Source: an uncultured Lentisphaeria bacterium
GTDB lineage: Bacteria; Verrucomicrobiota; Lentisphaeria; Victivallales; Victivallaceae
Length of the DNA: 64,000 bases
Assembly: GCA_903863035.1 (NCBI GenBank)
Contig: CAIPAT010000428.1
Coordinates: forward strand, 1-64,000
Direction: 5' to 3'
Part shown: positions 10,605-18,253 of the stretch, piece by piece
Layout of the letters: every line of letters starts with the position of its first letter
Numbering within the stretch: the stretch's first letter is position 1
Position numbers and translations under genes: made by a program
The notes under the pieces: model-generated
Told to the model about the DNA's origin: nothing
Seen by the model: the letters and a program-made list of their open reading frames with translations, nothing else
Databases searched by the model: none

Positions 10605-11129
10605 TTAAATCATATTGCCGGCGTCAAGCTTTGCCTGACGTTTCTGCATCCGTTGCTCATGGCGTTTTTGCTGATATTTCGCGGTAAGGCGGTGCGCGAT
10701 GAAATATCCGGGTATCGCTGAGATAATTCCCAGGAACGCTCCTCCGGCGAAAAAGGCCAGTACCAGATGCATTCCCAGTTGATAAATCGCGTCATAAGAC
10801 GGATTGCGCATAATTTCTTTCAGCGCAGTCTTTATCTGCTCATAAAACAGCGGTTTGCAAATCAGATAACCGCCAATATAACATTGCGCCGGATAGATAA
10901 ACGGAATCGTAAAGTTATTAGAGATGAATGTGCCGACAAACGCGGCAATGCGCGAACCTCTGAACAGGAACGCCAGCGGGATTGCCGCAGCCGCCTGGAA
11001 AAAGCAAGGAACGAAGAAATTGACAAACAGTCCCACCGCCCAGCCGCGGGCGATGAAATCGGGCGTGCCTCGCTCCCGTAATATCTTATAGTACCAGTAT
11101 GCGACTGAACGTTTTTTTAATCTCTTCAT
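10605..11129 (-). CDS. DUF2062 membrane protein
   Basis: A 174-residue membrane protein. The pattern RGTPDFIARGWAVGLFVNFF, then SNNFTIPFIYPAQCYIGG, matches the DUF2062 domain, with about three transmembrane helices (around 30-70, 80-95 and 120-150) and a basic C-terminal tail rich in Lys, Arg and Gln. Its function is unknown; family members often sit near glycosyltransferases or polyamine/lipid genes. AGGAA precedes the ATG. It lies 73 bp after the spermidine-synthase-like membrane gene and is the last of the mtnP cluster. It converges on the AraC gene, with 15 bp between the stops. Confidence 0.72.
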   Translation of the reverse strand: MKRLKKRSVAYWYYKILRERGTPDFIARGWAVGLFVNFFVPCFFQAAAAIPLAFLFRGSRIAAFVGTFISNNFTIPFIYPAQCYIGGYLICKPLFYEQIKTALKEIMRNPSYDAIYQLGMHLVLAFFAGGAFLGIISAIPGYFIAHRLTAKYQQKRHEQRMQKRQAKLDAGNMI

Positions 11130-11202: not shown

Positions 11203-11811
11203 TCACTCTTTAGAACTTTTTAACTGGAAGAGAACACAGAGCAGCCAGCATGCAATCAGAAACATGCCGAGCAGCAGAAAACATTTGGGAACACTGAGCC
11301 AGCTTATCAGGAAAAATGAAGTGACCAGAGTACCGGTAATACTGCCGGCAGTTGACATGGCGTAAACATCGCCGGCGGCGGATCCGATTTTTTGACTGTC
11401 GACGGCCCGCATTTTCACCAGAATCGGGATCACTGAGCCCAGGAAAATACATGGTATAAAAAATAGAATTATGGAGAGCAGCAGTACACTGGCTCTGGAA
11501 TCAAGTTCTAGCGCGTAGATCAATTTGCAGACGGGCTGTCCGTAAACCGGAAATGTTGTAATCAGCAATGCAGGAATTAGGATTATTTTGCGCAGAACAT
11601 TCAAGTCTGCGATTCTGTCGGCAATTTTGCCGCCCTGCTCATAGCCGAGGGCCAGGCCTGACAGAAAAATTGAGATAATCGCACCCCATACGTAAATCGA
11701 GCTGCCGTAATAAGGCGACAGTACTCTGACTCCCAGTATTTCATAGCTCATCAGAGCAAACCCAATCAGAAAAGCGATTGCATAGAGTATACTCTTATTG
11801 GCAGCATGCAT
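11203..11811 (-). CDS. Integral membrane partner of a spermidine-synthase-like protein
   Basis: A 202-residue hydrophobic protein with about six transmembrane helices. It matches the membrane half of fused 'MFS/spermidine synthase' proteins: GFALMSYEILGVRVLSPYYG near the start, ALGYEQGGKIADR between helices, and MSTAGSITGTLVTSFFLI near the end. In many bacteria this part is fused to the aminopropyltransferase domain. Here it is a separate gene 45 bp downstream of that domain's gene, on the same strand. GGGAGA precedes the ATG. It may export or channel polyamine-like products, but no activity has been established for this family. Confidence 0.7.
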   Translation of the reverse strand: MHAANKSILYAIAFLIGFALMSYEILGVRVLSPYYGSSIYVWGAIISIFLSGLALGYEQGGKIADRIADLNVLRKIILIPALLITTFPVYGQPVCKLIYALELDSRASVLLLSIILFFIPCIFLGSVIPILVKMRAVDSQKIGSAAGDVYAMSTAGSITGTLVTSFFLISWLSVPKCFLLLGMFLIACWLLCVLFQLKSSKE

Positions 11812-11856
11812 ATTACGGTCTCCCTGAATTTACTGACCAGTCATAAAATTAAACCA

Positions 11857-12834
11857 TTATTTCATAGTTTCAACCGGCGCAAAATCGTCTTTCAAAATTA
11901 TAGCTTCGCTGGTCATTGCTTTGAGCTCTTCCTCTTTCAGCCGGGTATTGAACATTGCCTTGAAATCCAATTCCGGGTTTGATGTATTTTCTAAATCAGC
12001 ACACTTGGACATGGTTGCGGTACTGTCAAACTTTCTGTTGACTGGGGCAAACAGAATGTAGTTGGTCTGTTCAGGACAGACAAAAACTGCCAGATTCGGA
12101 AAAATGCTTTGAATGGTTTTAAGCTCACTTGCTATAAACCTGGGTTTGCCGAGATTGGCGATATTGGCGGTCATCAGGCCGCCCGGGGTAAGGGCGGCGC
12201 GTATTTTTCGGTAAAACTCTTCGGTGGTTAGCTGAAAAGGAATATTTTCTGCATTATAGGCATCAATGAAAATGATGTCGTATTGCAACTTATTCCGATT
12301 GATAAAATCACGGCCGTCACCAATGGTTATATTAGTTTTATCATCTTTTTTGAACGCGAAATACTGCTCTGCGATGCCGGGGATCTCGCCGTCGATCTCG
12401 ATGATGTCAATGGTGGTTGCCGGAAAATGTTTCCGGATGAAGCGCGGTATGATGCCGGCGCCGAGCCCGACAAACAGCACCCGCCGTGGATACTGGTCGA
12501 TACATTGCAGGAAAAGCGTTGTGTATTTGCAATAATTGGAAATCAGTTCATCCGGTGATTGCGGGTTCCATATGCCCTGAGAACCGCGATTGGGGTTAAA
12601 TACCAGATGATGCCAGCCATTTTCGCCTTTTTCAACTGTTACCATGAAATAAAGGGTCTGTTTTTCCAGCAATATCTCCCGCTGTTCCGGATGCGGCAGG
12701 AAAAAGTTATTAATGCTCGCCCAGAAGCCGGGTTTGCCGCGGCTGTTTGTGCCGGAAGTTCTCTCCTGTGCCGGGCAGGTGGAAACCAGAGATAAAGTCG
12801 CGATGAAAATCGCGATGCCGATATATTTTTTCAT
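11857..12834 (-). CDS. Exported aminopropyltransferase (spermidine-synthase)-like protein
   Basis: A 325-residue protein with a good signal peptide (MKKYIGIAIFIATLSLV, cleavage near PAQ-E, residue 23) followed by a Rossmann methyltransferase-fold domain of the spermidine synthase family. Visible motifs are LFVGLGAGIIPRF (SAM-type nucleotide loop, about 118-130), DIIEIDGEI, TIGDGRDFI and IIFIDAYNAENIPFQLT followed by EEFY. The active-site Asp corresponds to the D of DAYN. Spermidine synthases are normally cytosolic and use decarboxylated SAM, so the signal peptide is unexpected. It may instead be membrane-anchored through an uncleaved N-terminus beside its membrane partner at 11203. It sits 56 bp after mtnP, which removes methylthioadenosine, the by-product of this reaction. 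Confidence 0.72.
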   Translation of the reverse strand: MKKYIGIAIFIATLSLVSTCPAQERTSGTNSRGKPGFWASINNFFLPHPEQREILLEKQTLYFMVTVEKGENGWHHLVFNPNRGSQGIWNPQSPDELISNYCKYTTLFLQCIDQYPRRVLFVGLGAGIIPRFIRKHFPATTIDIIEIDGEIPGIAEQYFAFKKDDKTNITIGDGRDFINRNKLQYDIIFIDAYNAENIPFQLTTEEFYRKIRAALTPGGLMTANIANLGKPRFIASELKTIQSIFPNLAVFVCPEQTNYILFAPVNRKFDSTATMSKCADLENTSNPELDFKAMFNTRLKEEELKAMTSEAIILKDDFAPVETMK

Positions 12835-12890
12835 AAAGTCCTTAAACAGTACGCGCGATGTGATTCGACGTCATTTTCCGCTAAATTTAT

Positions 12891-13772
12891 TTATTTCACA
12901 TACTTGCCGATGATCGGCTGGAGTTTCTTTCTGGTTTCCGGGTTCATGGCGTCCGGACTGGTGATAATGGCGCAGGCGAGGGCGCTTGGACAGGCGCAGG
13001 CGCGTTTCAAGGTGGCAATTTTTTCTGCAACCCGCCGGATGATATCTTTGGAAATAGCGGTATTGGCAACCAGGTGTCCGATAACCATATCCACTGTTAC
13101 ATGGTCGTGGTCCGGATGCCAGCAGTCATAATCAGTGACCATGGCGACAGTGCAGTAACATATTTCGGCTTCTCTGGCCAGTTTAGCTTCCGCCAGATTG
13201 GTCATGCCGATGACGGACCAGCCCATGGAACGATAAAATTTAGATTCAGCCATAGTGGAAAATGCCGGACCTTCCATGTTAACATAAGTTCCGCTGTCAT
13301 GAACAACCCTGGAGGTGTTATCGGATTTTTTTATGGCTTCGGTTGCCGCCGCGGCCGACAGTATCGCCAGTTCCGGACATACCGGATGCCCGAACGCGAT
13401 ATGGCCGACGATGCCGTTGCCGAAAAAGGTATGCTCAGAGCCGCGTTTGGTGCGGTCAAAATACTGGTCAACAATGACGATGTCACGCGGTTTCATGTTT
13501 TCTTTCAGACTGCCGACCGCTGAAATACTCAGGATATGGGTTACGCCAAGCGTTTTCATGGCATAAATGTTGGCACGGTGGTTAAGTTCTCCTGGCATCA
13601 GCGGATGCCCCTGGGCATGTCGCGGCAGAAAAACTACTTCCACTCCATGGATGCTGCCGCAGACAAATTTGTCGGAAGGAGACCCGAACGGAGTATCTAT
13701 CTGCTGCTGTTTAATGTCTTCCATGCCTTCAATCTGATAAAGCCCGCTGCCGCCGATGACGCCAAGTTTCAT
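12891..13772 (-). CDS. mtnP: S-methyl-5'-thioadenosine phosphorylase
   Basis: Cleaves methylthioadenosine with phosphate to adenine and 5-methylthioribose-1-phosphate in methionine salvage. The 293-residue product has the PNP/MTAP fold: GVIGGSGLY (residues 4-12), FLPRHAQGHPLMPGELNHRANIYA (split here as RHAQGH and ELNHRANIYA, phosphate and purine contacts), YVNMEGPAFSTMAES and IGMTNLAEAKLAREAE, with TDYDCWH late. GMTNLAE and the Ser/Thr pattern fit MTAP rather than inosine phosphorylase. The start at 13772 is preceded by GGGAG at 8 bp; an upstream start at 13796 lacks support. It leads the operon with the aminopropyltransferase-like gene and faces a class II aldolase, a context that supports MTA turnover. 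Confidence 0.92.
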   Translation of the reverse strand: MKLGVIGGSGLYQIEGMEDIKQQQIDTPFGSPSDKFVCGSIHGVEVVFLPRHAQGHPLMPGELNHRANIYAMKTLGVTHILSISAVGSLKENMKPRDIVIVDQYFDRTKRGSEHTFFGNGIVGHIAFGHPVCPELAILSAAAATEAIKKSDNTSRVVHDSGTYVNMEGPAFSTMAESKFYRSMGWSVIGMTNLAEAKLAREAEICYCTVAMVTDYDCWHPDHDHVTVDMVIGHLVANTAISKDIIRRVAEKIATLKRACACPSALACAIITSPDAMNPETRKKLQPIIGKYVK

Positions 13773-13881
13773 TGAATATCTCCCGGTTGTTGTCAATTAT
13801 GCTTTTAATTAGTTATTTTATAAATATATTATCTAAATGGACCAATGTAAAACTGATGAACTTATTTTTACGGAGAACTTC

Positions 13882-14520
13882 ATGTCTGAGATAGATACAA
13901 TACGTGAGGAAGTAGCATATTTTATGCGCCGCCTTTATATCCAGCAGCTCACAACAACTTCCGGAGGCAATATATCGGTAAAATCCGGTGATGTCGTGCT
14001 GATTACGCCTTCAGCTCTGGATAAGGGCAGAATCACCGGCGAACAGATCGGGGTGATGGATATGGACGGCAATATGAAAACGGAAAATCTGAAACCGTCC
14101 ATCGAGACCCGTTTGCATCTGGAAATTTACCGCAAGCGGCCGGATATATCGGCGGTAGTGCATGCGCATCCGCTGGCGGCCAGCGCGTATGCCGCAACAA
14201 CGCGTAAGATCAATACCACTTTGCTGGCGGAATCATATGCCATAGTCGGCGAAATCGCGTATGCCGGATATCATTGCATAGGCACATCCGAATTGGCCTT
14301 TGAAACTGCGGCTGCGGCTGCCGCCGCCAACTGCGTGATTATGAAAAATCACGGTGCGCTGGCCGTCGGTAAAACACTGCTGGAGGCGTTTGACCGGCTG
14401 GAAGTGCTGGAAAACACCGCCAGGATTAACCTGATTTGCGAGTCCGTCCTGAAAGACGGAATTTCGCCGCTTACACCGTCAGAGCTTCGCGGACTTGACG
14501 TATTAATGGGGCGTGTTTAG
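13882..14520 (+). CDS. Class II aldolase family protein, possible 5-methylthioribulose/deoxy-sugar-phosphate aldolase
   Basis: A 212-residue class II aldolase/adducin domain protein. SGGNIS (residues 27-32) forms the phosphate site, and Glu 75 is a likely catalytic residue. His 94 and 96 (VVHAHPLA) and His 157 (MKNHGAL) are the Zn ligands. This family includes fuculose-1-phosphate aldolase, ribulose-5-phosphate epimerase, MtnB dehydratase and the Ald2 aldolase of the DHAP shunt for MTA. Being divergent from mtnP favours an MTA-linked role, but the sequence alone cannot separate these functions. CGGAGAA precedes the ATG at 13882, better than the upstream ATG at 13837. Confidence 0.8.
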   Translation: MSEIDTIREEVAYFMRRLYIQQLTTTSGGNISVKSGDVVLITPSALDKGRITGEQIGVMDMDGNMKTENLKPSIETRLHLEIYRKRPDISAVVHAHPLAASAYAATTRKINTTLLAESYAIVGEIAYAGYHCIGTSELAFETAAAAAAANCVIMKNHGALAVGKTLLEAFDRLEVLENTARINLICESVLKDGISPLTPSELRGLDVLMGRV

Positions 14521-14617
14521 TTTTTAGTATTAAAGAGTTACTAAGCAATTTCTTGCTTTTGCTTTCATTAAGGCTATATTTCAAGAATAAACGTCATTGC
14601 GAGAAAGGTCAGAGGAT

Positions 14618-15166
14618 ATGTTGTGTGACGCCTGTAAAAAAAATGATGCGACTATTCATATTCAGGAAATTATCAGCGGGCAGAAAAAAACTATTCACCT
14701 GTGCGGCGAATGCGCAGCCAAGAAGTCCGGAGATAATCCGGCTATGGAAATCGGAGGTTTTAACATTGCGGAAATGTTATATAATCTGACTGAAAAATTG
14801 AATATTCCCGGTTTTCAGCAGGCATTGCAGCAGGGCGGCATTGCGCCGGTACAGGAAAAAAAGCTGGTTTGTCCTGCCTGCAACTGGACGACCGAAGGAC
14901 TGAGAAACAGCGGACGGCTGGGATGCCCGGAATGTTACAATACCTTCAGGGATATTCTGGAAAGCGCTCTGGAGAATATGCATCGCGGCAAGCTTCATGT
15001 CGGCAAAAAGCCGGGTTCTGACAGCTCTGACGAATCGCCCAGGCTGATGCTTGAACTGATGAACTATCAGAAGGAGCTTGAAGAGCTCATCCAGCGCGAA
15101 GAATACGAAAAGGCCGCTAAGGTACGCGATATGATCAATGAACTGAAGAAAAAAATTAAAAAGTAA
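14618..15166 (+). CDS. mcsA: McsA-like zinc-finger/UVR protein, activator of arginine kinase
   Basis: A 182-residue protein with four CxxC pairs (CDAC at 3-6, CGEC near 30, CPAC and CPEC near 85-110) forming zinc knuckles. A C-terminal UVR (UvrB/UvrC) motif, ELEELIQREEYEKAAKVRDM, lies at about 150-170. This is the layout of McsA, which binds and activates the protein-arginine kinase McsB and links it to ClpC in Firmicutes. The ATG at 14618 follows AAGG; a TTG at 14597 is less likely. It lies 17 bp upstream of the kinase gene, the usual mcsA-mcsB order. No ctsR or clpC is adjacent. Confidence 0.88.
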   Translation: MLCDACKKNDATIHIQEIISGQKKTIHLCGECAAKKSGDNPAMEIGGFNIAEMLYNLTEKLNIPGFQQALQQGGIAPVQEKKLVCPACNWTTEGLRNSGRLGCPECYNTFRDILESALENMHRGKLHVGKKPGSDSSDESPRLMLELMNYQKELEELIQREEYEKAAKVRDMINELKKKIKK

Positions 15167-15183
15167 TTTCAGGATTTACGGCT

Positions 15184-16260
15184 ATGGACAATAAACAGAA
15201 AATAGACAGCCTTCTGAAGCATAAAGTCAGCTGGCTGGAAGACAGCGGTCCTGATGATGATATCGCAATCAGTTCCAGAATCCGGCTGGCCAGAAATATA
15301 AAGGGAACTCCTTTTCCGATAGCGGCTTCTCCCGAACAGTTGAACAACACCAGAGGCGCAATCCAGATGGCGGTGGAGAAATCAAACTGCCTGGGGACGT
15401 CAGCGCTTTGTTTTGAAATGGATAAGCTTTCACGCTGGGAGAAAGAACTGCTGCTGGAAAGACGCCTGGTCAGTAATGAATTTATTGCCCGTGACGGCGG
15501 CGCCGCATTGATCGTGAAACGCAACGAATCCGCCGGCATTATGATCAACGAGGAAGACCATATCAGAATGCAGGCGCTTTCGCCAGGGTTTCAACTGGAG
15601 GAAGTATGGAAGAACATCTCCAGAATTGACTCTTTACTGGAAAAACATCTGCCTTTTGCTTATGATGAAAAACTTGGATATTTGACCTCATGCCCTACTA
15701 ATGTCGGTACCGGCATGCGCGCTTCGGTAATGCTGCATCTGCCGGGACTGGTGCTTTCCGGACAGATCAATGCAGCAATTCAGGGAATCACCAAGCTTGG
15801 ACTGGCCGTCAGAGGCATATTCGGTGAAGGTTCAGACAATCAGGGCAGCCTGTTCCAGGTATCCAATCAAAGTACGCTTGGCGAATCTGAGCAACAGATT
15901 ATGGAACGGCTTTGCGGTGTCATCAAGCAGTTGATCAGTCACGAAAAAAACGCCAGGCTGACGCTGGTTGAGAAAAATCAGTATTTTCTGCTCGATCACG
16001 TCGGCAGGGCCTACGGCATACTCCGGCACGCTTATGTTCTTTCCAGCGAAGAGGCGCTGAATTCGCTGTCCGACATTAGAATCGGAGTGGATATGGGCAT
16101 GTTTTCAACGGTGGATCTGCCTACGGTAAATGAACTTTTCCTGACCATTCATCCGGCGCATCTTCAGAAGTTCGCCGGCAAGGAATTAAATGCTGAAGAG
16201 CGTGATATTTTCCGGGCTGCGATGGTGCGGGACCGGCTTAAAAACCTCAAGAACAGTTAA
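15184..16260 (+). CDS. mcsB: Protein-arginine kinase McsB
   Basis: A 358-residue ATP:guanido phosphotransferase domain protein that phosphorylates arginine side chains of proteins, tagging them for Clp degradation. SSRIRLARNI (30-39) binds ATP. The catalytic loop is LTSCPTNVGTGMRAS with Cys 170. FGEGSDNQG and LGESEQQI belong to the C-lobe. The C-terminal RDIFRA (340-345) matches the RDxxRA motif that binds phospho-arginine allosterically in Bacillus McsB, so both activity and allostery seem intact. It is translated with McsA and followed after 10 bp by a histidine kinase. Confidence 0.93.
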   Translation: MDNKQKIDSLLKHKVSWLEDSGPDDDIAISSRIRLARNIKGTPFPIAASPEQLNNTRGAIQMAVEKSNCLGTSALCFEMDKLSRWEKELLLERRLVSNEFIARDGGAALIVKRNESAGIMINEEDHIRMQALSPGFQLEEVWKNISRIDSLLEKHLPFAYDEKLGYLTSCPTNVGTGMRASVMLHLPGLVLSGQINAAIQGITKLGLAVRGIFGEGSDNQGSLFQVSNQSTLGESEQQIMERLCGVIKQLISHEKNARLTLVEKNQYFLLDHVGRAYGILRHAYVLSSEEALNSLSDIRIGVDMGMFSTVDLPTVNELFLTIHPAHLQKFAGKELNAEERDIFRAAMVRDRLKNLKNS

Positions 16261-16270
16261 GGCATAGTCT

Positions 16271-18253
16271 ATGTTGGAAAGCTTATATGCTGTACTCCTG
16301 ACATTCCTGGAAATGACTTTCATTTTTGTCGGCCTTGCCTTGCTTCACAATCAGCGGAAGGTTATCGGTAGCGCCGCTTTCTATGTAGCAATCGGACTGC
16401 TTTTTGTGTTTACCCAGTTTGTGAGTGCCGCGGAGTTGAGCGTCAATGTTTTTTCCGCAAATCTGAACTTCAGCGTTGGCTCGACGGCGCTTTTTCTGCC
16501 ATATCTTGGCGCGTTGATGCTGGTGTATGCAACCCAGGGAACGCTGGAGGCGCAGCGGATGATTACCGGCGCGGTCGCCGGTTTCGGGCTTTTTATTTAT
16601 TTGAGTACTCTGACCAGTCTGCAATGCAACTGGCTGGGTTTTGCGATTTCACAGGGAACTTCAGCCGACTCGCTTGATTATCTGCTGCAGCAATCCAGGC
16701 GCTCCATGACTGCGTCAACTCTGGCTCAGCTTTTCGACTTGTTCCTGCTGCCGATCTTTTTCCAGCGTCTGCGCAATGCAAACTGCCGCATTTTTTTCTG
16801 TGTTCTTGGCGCAATGCTGTTTACTCAATTGATTGATTCTTTTATCTATTTGTCGGTGACTTACTGGGACCGTCCGCAATGGTGGCTGTATATTAATAAT
16901 TCGTTCCTGATTAAATCTATCGCCACTGTCTGGATCAGCGCACTCATTTCAATCTATCTGTTTCTGGTCGAAAAAGAGGTTGCCAACGAACCGCGCGGCA
17001 CTCTGGATATTATTTTCGCCTTTTTAGGCGGTTACGGCAAGGCTCAGATACTTGAGCGTAATCTTCGTGAGTGGGAAGGACGCTATCGCATGGTCGTTGA
17101 AAATGCCAGTGAAATGATTATGCTGCTGGACCAGCAGGGATGCATTATTGATGCCAATTATGCCGCAATCGGCATGCTTAAAGCCAGAAAAAAACAGGAG
17201 ATTATCGGTGCGAATTTCATGGCGATGCTGCGGGCAGAAAACCGGCTGCCGCTACCGCCGATGCTGCCGCAGGAACCCAAAAATATGCAGGATACTGCCA
17301 CCAGAATCAATACTAATCATTTCAAATGCTATCTGGGGTCTGATAAAGACCAGCTCCGTCTGGATATCTCGATTTCCGCAATTGAATTTAAAGACGTTAA
17401 AATGCATGTGCTGCTGGGGCGGGATATTACCGAAGAAAGCCGGCTGGCCAGTGAGAAAGAAATACTCAGCGAACAGCTTGCCCATTCACAGCGCCTGGAA
17501 GCGGTCGGCCAGCTTGCGGGAGGCGTTGCTCACGACTTCAACAATCACATCCACGCTATTCTCGGCCATCTCGACCTGATCCGGCTGTTTTATAAATTCG
17601 ATGATCCGAAAGTATCCAAGCATCTGGATAAAATCACTCAGATATCTGAACAGGCCGGCCTGCTCACCGAGCAGTTGCTGGGGTTTGCGCGAAAAGGCAA
17701 ATATCAGGAAACTATTCTGGATTTGAACAATTTAATTAGAAAAAGTACTGAACTGTTTCTGCCTAACAGTCAGAAAAGTCTGGATTTGATTATAGAAATC
17801 GCCCCGGGCGAAATGCCGATCAGGGGAGACAAAGTTCAATTACAGCAGGTGATCATCAATCTGCTTATCAATGCCAGAGACGCCATGGAAAGCAATGGCG
17901 ACGAAGACATGCGGCTGATGGTGAGGGTGGATTCCGCCGAAAAATTCAATATCCCATTGAAACCGGCCGGCGTTAAAGTAAAGGTTCACCCGGAAGATTA
18001 CTATTGCATTATGATCGAGGATAACGGATGCGGGATGGACAAGAGCACCATGCTGCGAATTTTCGAACCGTTCTTTACCACTAAACCGATCGGCAAAGGC
18101 ACCGGAATGGGGCTGGCCATGGTTTACGGTACTGTTTCCAACCATCACGGGTGGGTGCAGGTAACCAGCAAAGTAGGCAAAGGCACTGCTTTCTACGTCT
18201 TCCTGCCGAAGACTGTCCGCCGGGTTGATCTGTCCGGAACTGCAACCATATAA
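16271..18253 (+). CDS. Membrane sensor histidine kinase with PAS domain
   Basis: A 660-residue kinase. Residues 1 to about 235 hold about seven transmembrane helices in a pattern that resembles vitamin-uptake-like (VUT/YhhQ-type) sensor modules; this resemblance is tentative. A PAS domain lies at about 265-390 ([19 protein letters not shown]) and a HisKA domain at about 400-480, with His 421 in [10 protein letters not shown]. The HATPase domain has the N box ([14 protein letters not shown]), G1 (IEDNGCGMD) and G2 ([13 protein letters not shown]). The HDFNN form belongs to the NtrB/HPK4-like class. No receiver domain or response regulator gene is present nearby. The 10-bp gap to mcsB suggests cotranscription. 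Confidence 0.88.

Follow-up and report, generated by a model that had tools for sequence, protein, structure and literature searches.

A split MFS/spermidine-synthase-type gene pair beside mtnP and a class II aldolase gene in an uncultured Lentisphaeria bacterium

The window, by which we mean the whole stretch of 64,000 nucleotides analysed, carries on its minus strand a run made up of mtnP, P0002, P0001, and a gene for a DUF2062 protein, in this order and spaced by 56, 45, and 73 bp; a class II aldolase gene faces mtnP from a divergent start on the plus strand (Table 1). An initial annotation of positions 11203–14520 had placed mtnP, P0002, P0001, and the aldolase gene in this arrangement, and all four are confirmed. 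An aldolase start at 13882 agrees better with relatives than that at 13837. Same-genus genomes repeat the split between P0001 and P0002 at 85% identity, and the position of the DUF2062 gene is kept in L046, the sole same-genus contig that reaches so far. A search for related loci returned two same-genus loci and otherwise weak matches; the closest named relatives are uncultured Lentisphaeria MAGs. Further along the window, genes for an McsA-like zinc protein and an McsB-like protein-arginine kinase (14597–16260, plus strand), and next after the latter a histidine kinase gene (16271–18253), were recognised by eye.

Table 1. Coordinates, within the window, of the genes in the run and of two segments of P0002.
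Feature	Position	Strand	Basis and remarks
DUF2062 membrane protein	10605–11129	-	PF09835, E 1.5e-31; end of gene run
P0001, six-helix membrane half (half-MFS-like) of split MFS/spermidine-synthase protein	11203–11811	-	202 aa; NF037959 match
P0002, exported spermidine-synthase-fold half (predicted)	11857–12834	-	325 aa; NF037959 and Pfam Spermine_synth
P0002 N-terminal signal sequence, residues 1–22	12769–12834	-	Charge and hydrophobic core kept in orthologues; cleavage site approximate
P0002 GLGAG motif, residues 123–127	12454–12468	-	Alignment with orthologues and with the genome's own speE (GGGDG)
mtnP, S-methyl-5'-thioadenosine phosphorylase	12891–13772	-	ATG start; TIGR01694; PDB 4glf
Class II aldolase, probable DHAP-shunt aldolase	13837–14520	+	PF00596, E 4.8e-47; divergent from mtnP

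P0001 and P0002 cover complementary halves of NCBIfam profile NF037959, P0001 aligning with profile positions 5–182 (E 4.8e-32, 111.3 bits) and P0002 with positions 245–479 (E 5.6e-28, 97.9 bits), both above the curated cut-off of 40 bits, and the module is indeed split, as initially annotated. NF037959 is the model named 'fused MFS/spermidine synthase', whose members are widespread in bacteria and archaea. In contrast to this single-polypeptide family, the locus has two genes separated by the 45-bp gap, with the soluble half first and a signal sequence replacing helix 7, and the halves are separate in relatives too. The accompanying statement that the two parts are usually one polypeptide therefore holds in part: fused relatives exist, but the halves are separate in Pseudoalteromonas, Sphingomonas, and other lineages.

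Helices were predicted by a simple hydropathy scan, backed for P0001 by an AlphaFold2 model. Most fused relatives whose profile is clear have seven helices: seven hydrophobic helices precede the soluble domain in the fused proteins of Cytobacillus, Peribacillus, Halomicrococcus, and three genomes of our set (G093, G101, and G193), with Lys/Arg in the short segment that joins helix 6 to helix 7; G192 and G185 give fewer clear peaks in the scan than these seven-helix relatives. In the split relatives (Pseudoalteromonas, Sphingomonas, G208/G217, G155, G048, and the window's order), helix 6 is the last helix of the membrane half, and a basic hydrophobic stretch opens the soluble half. From these ends, the cut is assigned to the cytoplasmic loop 6–7, with helix 7 apparently retained to serve as the signal sequence of P0002. 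A tree was built from the soluble domains and has several long branches; in it, the split proteins of G208/G217 nest within fused relatives with support of 100/98–100 (100/100 for the group), and from this nesting we conclude that splitting or fusion has, as judged from the sequences, occurred more than once. The same-genus recurrence and the nested G208/G217 also rule out that the split is a unique oddity or an assembly artefact.

Pseudoalteromonas and Sphingomonas have the same kind of split, with both halves named 'fused' in RefSeq; at L111:1328-2828 and L112:1255-2825, the RefSeq label 'fused MFS/spermidine synthase' stands on each of the two separate halves and masks the split. Our literature search returned no study of the bacterial MFS/spermidine synthase family itself beyond its mention in PspA operons, the fused 7TM/spermidine-synthase-like proteins having been found in PspA envelope-stress operons (PMC11237479).

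The AlphaFold2 model of P0001 has six helices (pLDDT 92), in agreement with the six-helix membrane partner described initially. Foldseek detects a weak likeness of this model to MFS halves, with none at E<=0.001, and some long relatives contain two P0001-like units, which fits a half-MFS protein. Both termini of P0001 are modelled as cytoplasmic. The membrane side was judged from hydropathy and charge counts. A signal peptide on P0002 is consistent with the basic, hydrophobic N-terminus found in all 14 order-level sequences, where Lys/Arg ahead of a hydrophobic core gives a predicted N-in/C-out orientation, although these signal peptides are short and differ among orthologues in where cleavage would fall. 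Since the fused forms have seven helices with the N-terminus inside, the soluble domain is predicted to be extracytoplasmic in split and fused forms alike. Anchoring of P0002 as a lipoprotein was considered and rejected, as only part of the orthologues have a Cys close to the site of cleavage.

The AlphaFold2 model of P0002 (mean pLDDT 79.6) has a spermidine-synthase fold, and Foldseek places spermidine synthases (2pt9, 1uir, and others, E ~1e-15) as the closest solved folds. By sequence profile, the best PDB match is instead METTL13 (5wcj; E 6e-17 and 2e-25), which leads by sequence only. Spermidine synthases require Asp or Glu in the dcSAM-binding GxG(D/E)G motif (PMC10349129). P0002 reads GLGAG, and its orthologues have Ala or Gly at the acidic position, compared with GGGDG in the genome's own SpeE; likewise, the D-S-T-D loop of that SpeE is D-A-Y-N in P0002. 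All aminopropyltransferase equivalog cut-offs are missed (PRK04457, 99.6 against 304 bits; speE, 58.7 against 249.55 bits), and a canonical speD-speE pair is present away from the window, on contig C454 of the same genome (G000). Judged from these features, P0002 is not an aminopropyltransferase, and the membrane-linked aminopropyl transfer put forward initially is rejected for it on the strength of the motif, the profile cut-offs, and the separate speE. E146, which matches the SAM-binding Glu of the fungal enzyme NHMT, is invariant or nearly so together with D173 and D191 in 14 sequences with 33–85% identity to P0002, and this suggests a working nucleotide pocket or an active site under selection. 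The speD gene on C454 (L001:452-1303) is a single 283-aa frame with two tandem AdoMet decarboxylase domains, the second of which scores lower and seems devoid of the ESH processing site, a layout that resembles the fusion of an active with a degenerate copy.

Among 149 genomes from the class, 16 have an orthologue of P0002 and 13 a stand-alone homologue of P0001, the 13 all falling within those 16 (Fisher p 3e-16 over the 149 genomes, uncorrected for kinship); in G041 and G047, P0002 is present and no P0001 was seen. Seven genomes have the two genes side by side and six have them on separate contigs, so their co-occurrence across the order does not need linkage. In comparison, mtnP was found in 15 of 16 genomes tested, and adjoins the split pair only in the window's genus, where the gene run of the split pair and mtnP is common to three genomes. 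The aldolase gene and mtnP form a divergent pair in 9 of 15 genomes. These pairing patterns indicate that mtnP goes with the aldolase and P0001 with P0002, and the two units seem merely juxtaposed. A conserved tie of the split pair to mtnP is ruled out by this genus-only adjacency, and the proposed link of the split module to MTA recycling is further disfavoured by the predicted outside location of the P0002 domain and the lack of an export signal in the mtnP product. No gene neighbour of the split pair is conserved and none indicates a substrate.

The mtnP product scores 290 bits for TIGR01694 against a cut-off of 275, and its closest PDB entry is 4glf (E 1.6e-81). The window aldolase reaches no subfamily profile cut-off; it keeps the Glu and the three His typical of class II enzymes (E90, H109, H111, and H172, assigned by reference to FucA). 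The genome (6.7 Mb in 465 contigs) encodes three further class II aldolases, which resemble AraD, RhaD, and a RhaD-type aldolase/dehydrogenase, with no MtnB-type aldolase among them. The initial annotation would have given up its reading in the absence of mtnA and speD; both are present in G000, mtnA on contig C53. MtnK (TIGR01767) and MtnD (PF03079) were not found in this genome, which at 93.6% completeness makes their absence no proof. The MtnP variant of the DHAP shunt comprises MtnP, MtnA, and Ald2 (PMC10986504). The genome resembles it in having mtnP, mtnA, and a class II aldolase while mtnK and mtnD were not found, and differs in that mtnP and the aldolase form a divergent pair with mtnA unlinked. 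Based on this gene content and the conserved divergent pair, a DHAP-shunt reading of mtnP and a putative aldolase branch is supported, and the earlier suggestion of such a branch in place of MtnBCD gains support.

The fungal enzyme NHMT (AN4663), which has a 7TM part and used to carry a spermidine synthase annotation, acts in the ER as N-terminal-histidine methyltransferase of LPMOs; its activity is lost on E340A substitution and on removal of the TM part, and the 7TM architecture has been reported as unique to fungi (PMC10349129). In a residue test for the NHMT/METTL13 type, P0002 shows both features, a nearly invariant E146 in the position of NHMT E340 and Ala/Gly in the motif. Like NHMT, the split pair combines a multi-helix membrane part with a spermidine-synthase-like domain that has a non-acidic residue in the GxG(D/E)G motif, the SAM-binding Glu, and a predicted secretory route. 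Unlike the bacterial pair, NHMT is fused and fungal, with a 7TM part reported from fungi only, and P0002 has no known LPMO-type substrate. The C-terminal domain of METTL13, an eEF1A N-terminal methyltransferase, is the best sequence match in the PDB and has GLGGG without the acidic residue, but METTL13 is cytosolic and eukaryotic and has no membrane part. SpeE and P0002 have the same overall fold, but the acidic residue that binds dcSAM and the second Asp in the D-S-T-D loop are both missing from P0002.

An extracytoplasmic methyltransferase, as in the case of fungal NHMT, is our best guess for P0002. With moderate confidence, we propose that the split pair is an extracytoplasmic SAM-type methyltransferase unit that lies beside an independent, cytosolic mtnP/aldolase salvage of DHAP-shunt type. 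The half-MFS protein P0001 would stay in the membrane with both ends in the cytoplasm, and the signal sequence, in place of helix 7, would take the P0002 domain out of the cytoplasm to face the periplasm. We infer methyl transfer, the kind of substrate, and a route of SAM to the site: P0002 would most likely bind SAM, and its target for methylation would be an exported protein or a part of the envelope, much as NHMT methylates exported enzymes inside the ER. The mtnP gene, the divergent aldolase gene, and the unlinked mtnA would together serve cytosolic salvage of MTA and 5'-deoxyadenosine.

To our knowledge, SAM use is cytosolic, and we know of no established source of SAM in the periplasm, a supply problem that is common to the fungal NHMT precedent. 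Because this is the main objection to the methyltransferase proposal, appreciable weight, if clearly a minority share, is left to an exported domain without catalysis, which might serve the half-MFS protein as a subunit that senses or binds nucleosides or polyamines, be it for transport or for signalling of envelope stress. The PspA operon context of fused relatives (PMC11237479), the resemblance of the membrane half to MFS transporters, and the expectation that SAM is missing outside the cytoplasm would all be accommodated by such a subunit, but the near-invariance of the nucleotide-pocket residues over 14 sequences argues for a selected active site. The supply problem would also disappear if the N-terminus of P0002 only docked to the membrane and the domain were an ordinary SAM methyltransferase in the cytoplasm, where SAM is available. 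The short signal peptides with variable cleavage sites are compatible with docking, which we nevertheless consider improbable in view of the uniform N-in/C-out prediction for the P0002 sequences and the independent prediction of C-out from the helix count of the fused relatives.

A membrane-linked aminopropyltransferase that passes its by-product MTA to a co-transcribed mtnP is in our view very improbable. It would account for the gene run shared with mtnP in the three same-genus genomes and for the spermidine-synthase fold of P0002, and with speD in the genome dcSAM can be made. It is difficult to reconcile with the altered GLGAG and D-A-Y-N segments, the shortfall of about 190 bits or more from the speE-type equivalog cut-offs, and the separate canonical speE, or with a P0002 domain predicted outside the cytoplasm and an mtnP located away from the pair in every relative beyond the genus.

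The locus is of interest because a large family, misnamed at present, probably has its domain outside the cytoplasm and a chemistry other than aminopropyl transfer, and not because of a link to MTA recycling. Members are widely annotated as spermidine synthase. If the domain is extracytoplasmic and unable to use dcSAM, many annotations that invoke polyamines are in error, and bacteria may have periplasmic SAM-type chemistry with an unexplained cofactor supply. Much more tentatively, and with rather low expectation, we extend the methyltransferase proposal to a family, widespread in bacteria and archaea, of extracytoplasmic SAM methyltransferases for exported proteins or envelope parts, in which the half-MFS partner would supply SAM or substrate across the membrane. 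The split form is convenient for testing, since its soluble half is amenable to expression by itself and its signal sequence is directly testable.

Variants of the architecture were noted in passing. A split pair from another family of the class (L077, from G048; about 1450–2577 and 560–2236) has frames that appear to overlap at the junction, and a lipoprotein-like signal may stand at the start of its soluble half. In G000, the genome of the window, two further large membrane proteins contain a spermidine-synthase-like domain: a 977-aa protein (L003:463-3396, contig C128) combines it with many helices and a TPR-like tail, and in a 777-aa protein (L004:394-2727, contig C167) helices flank the domain on both sides.
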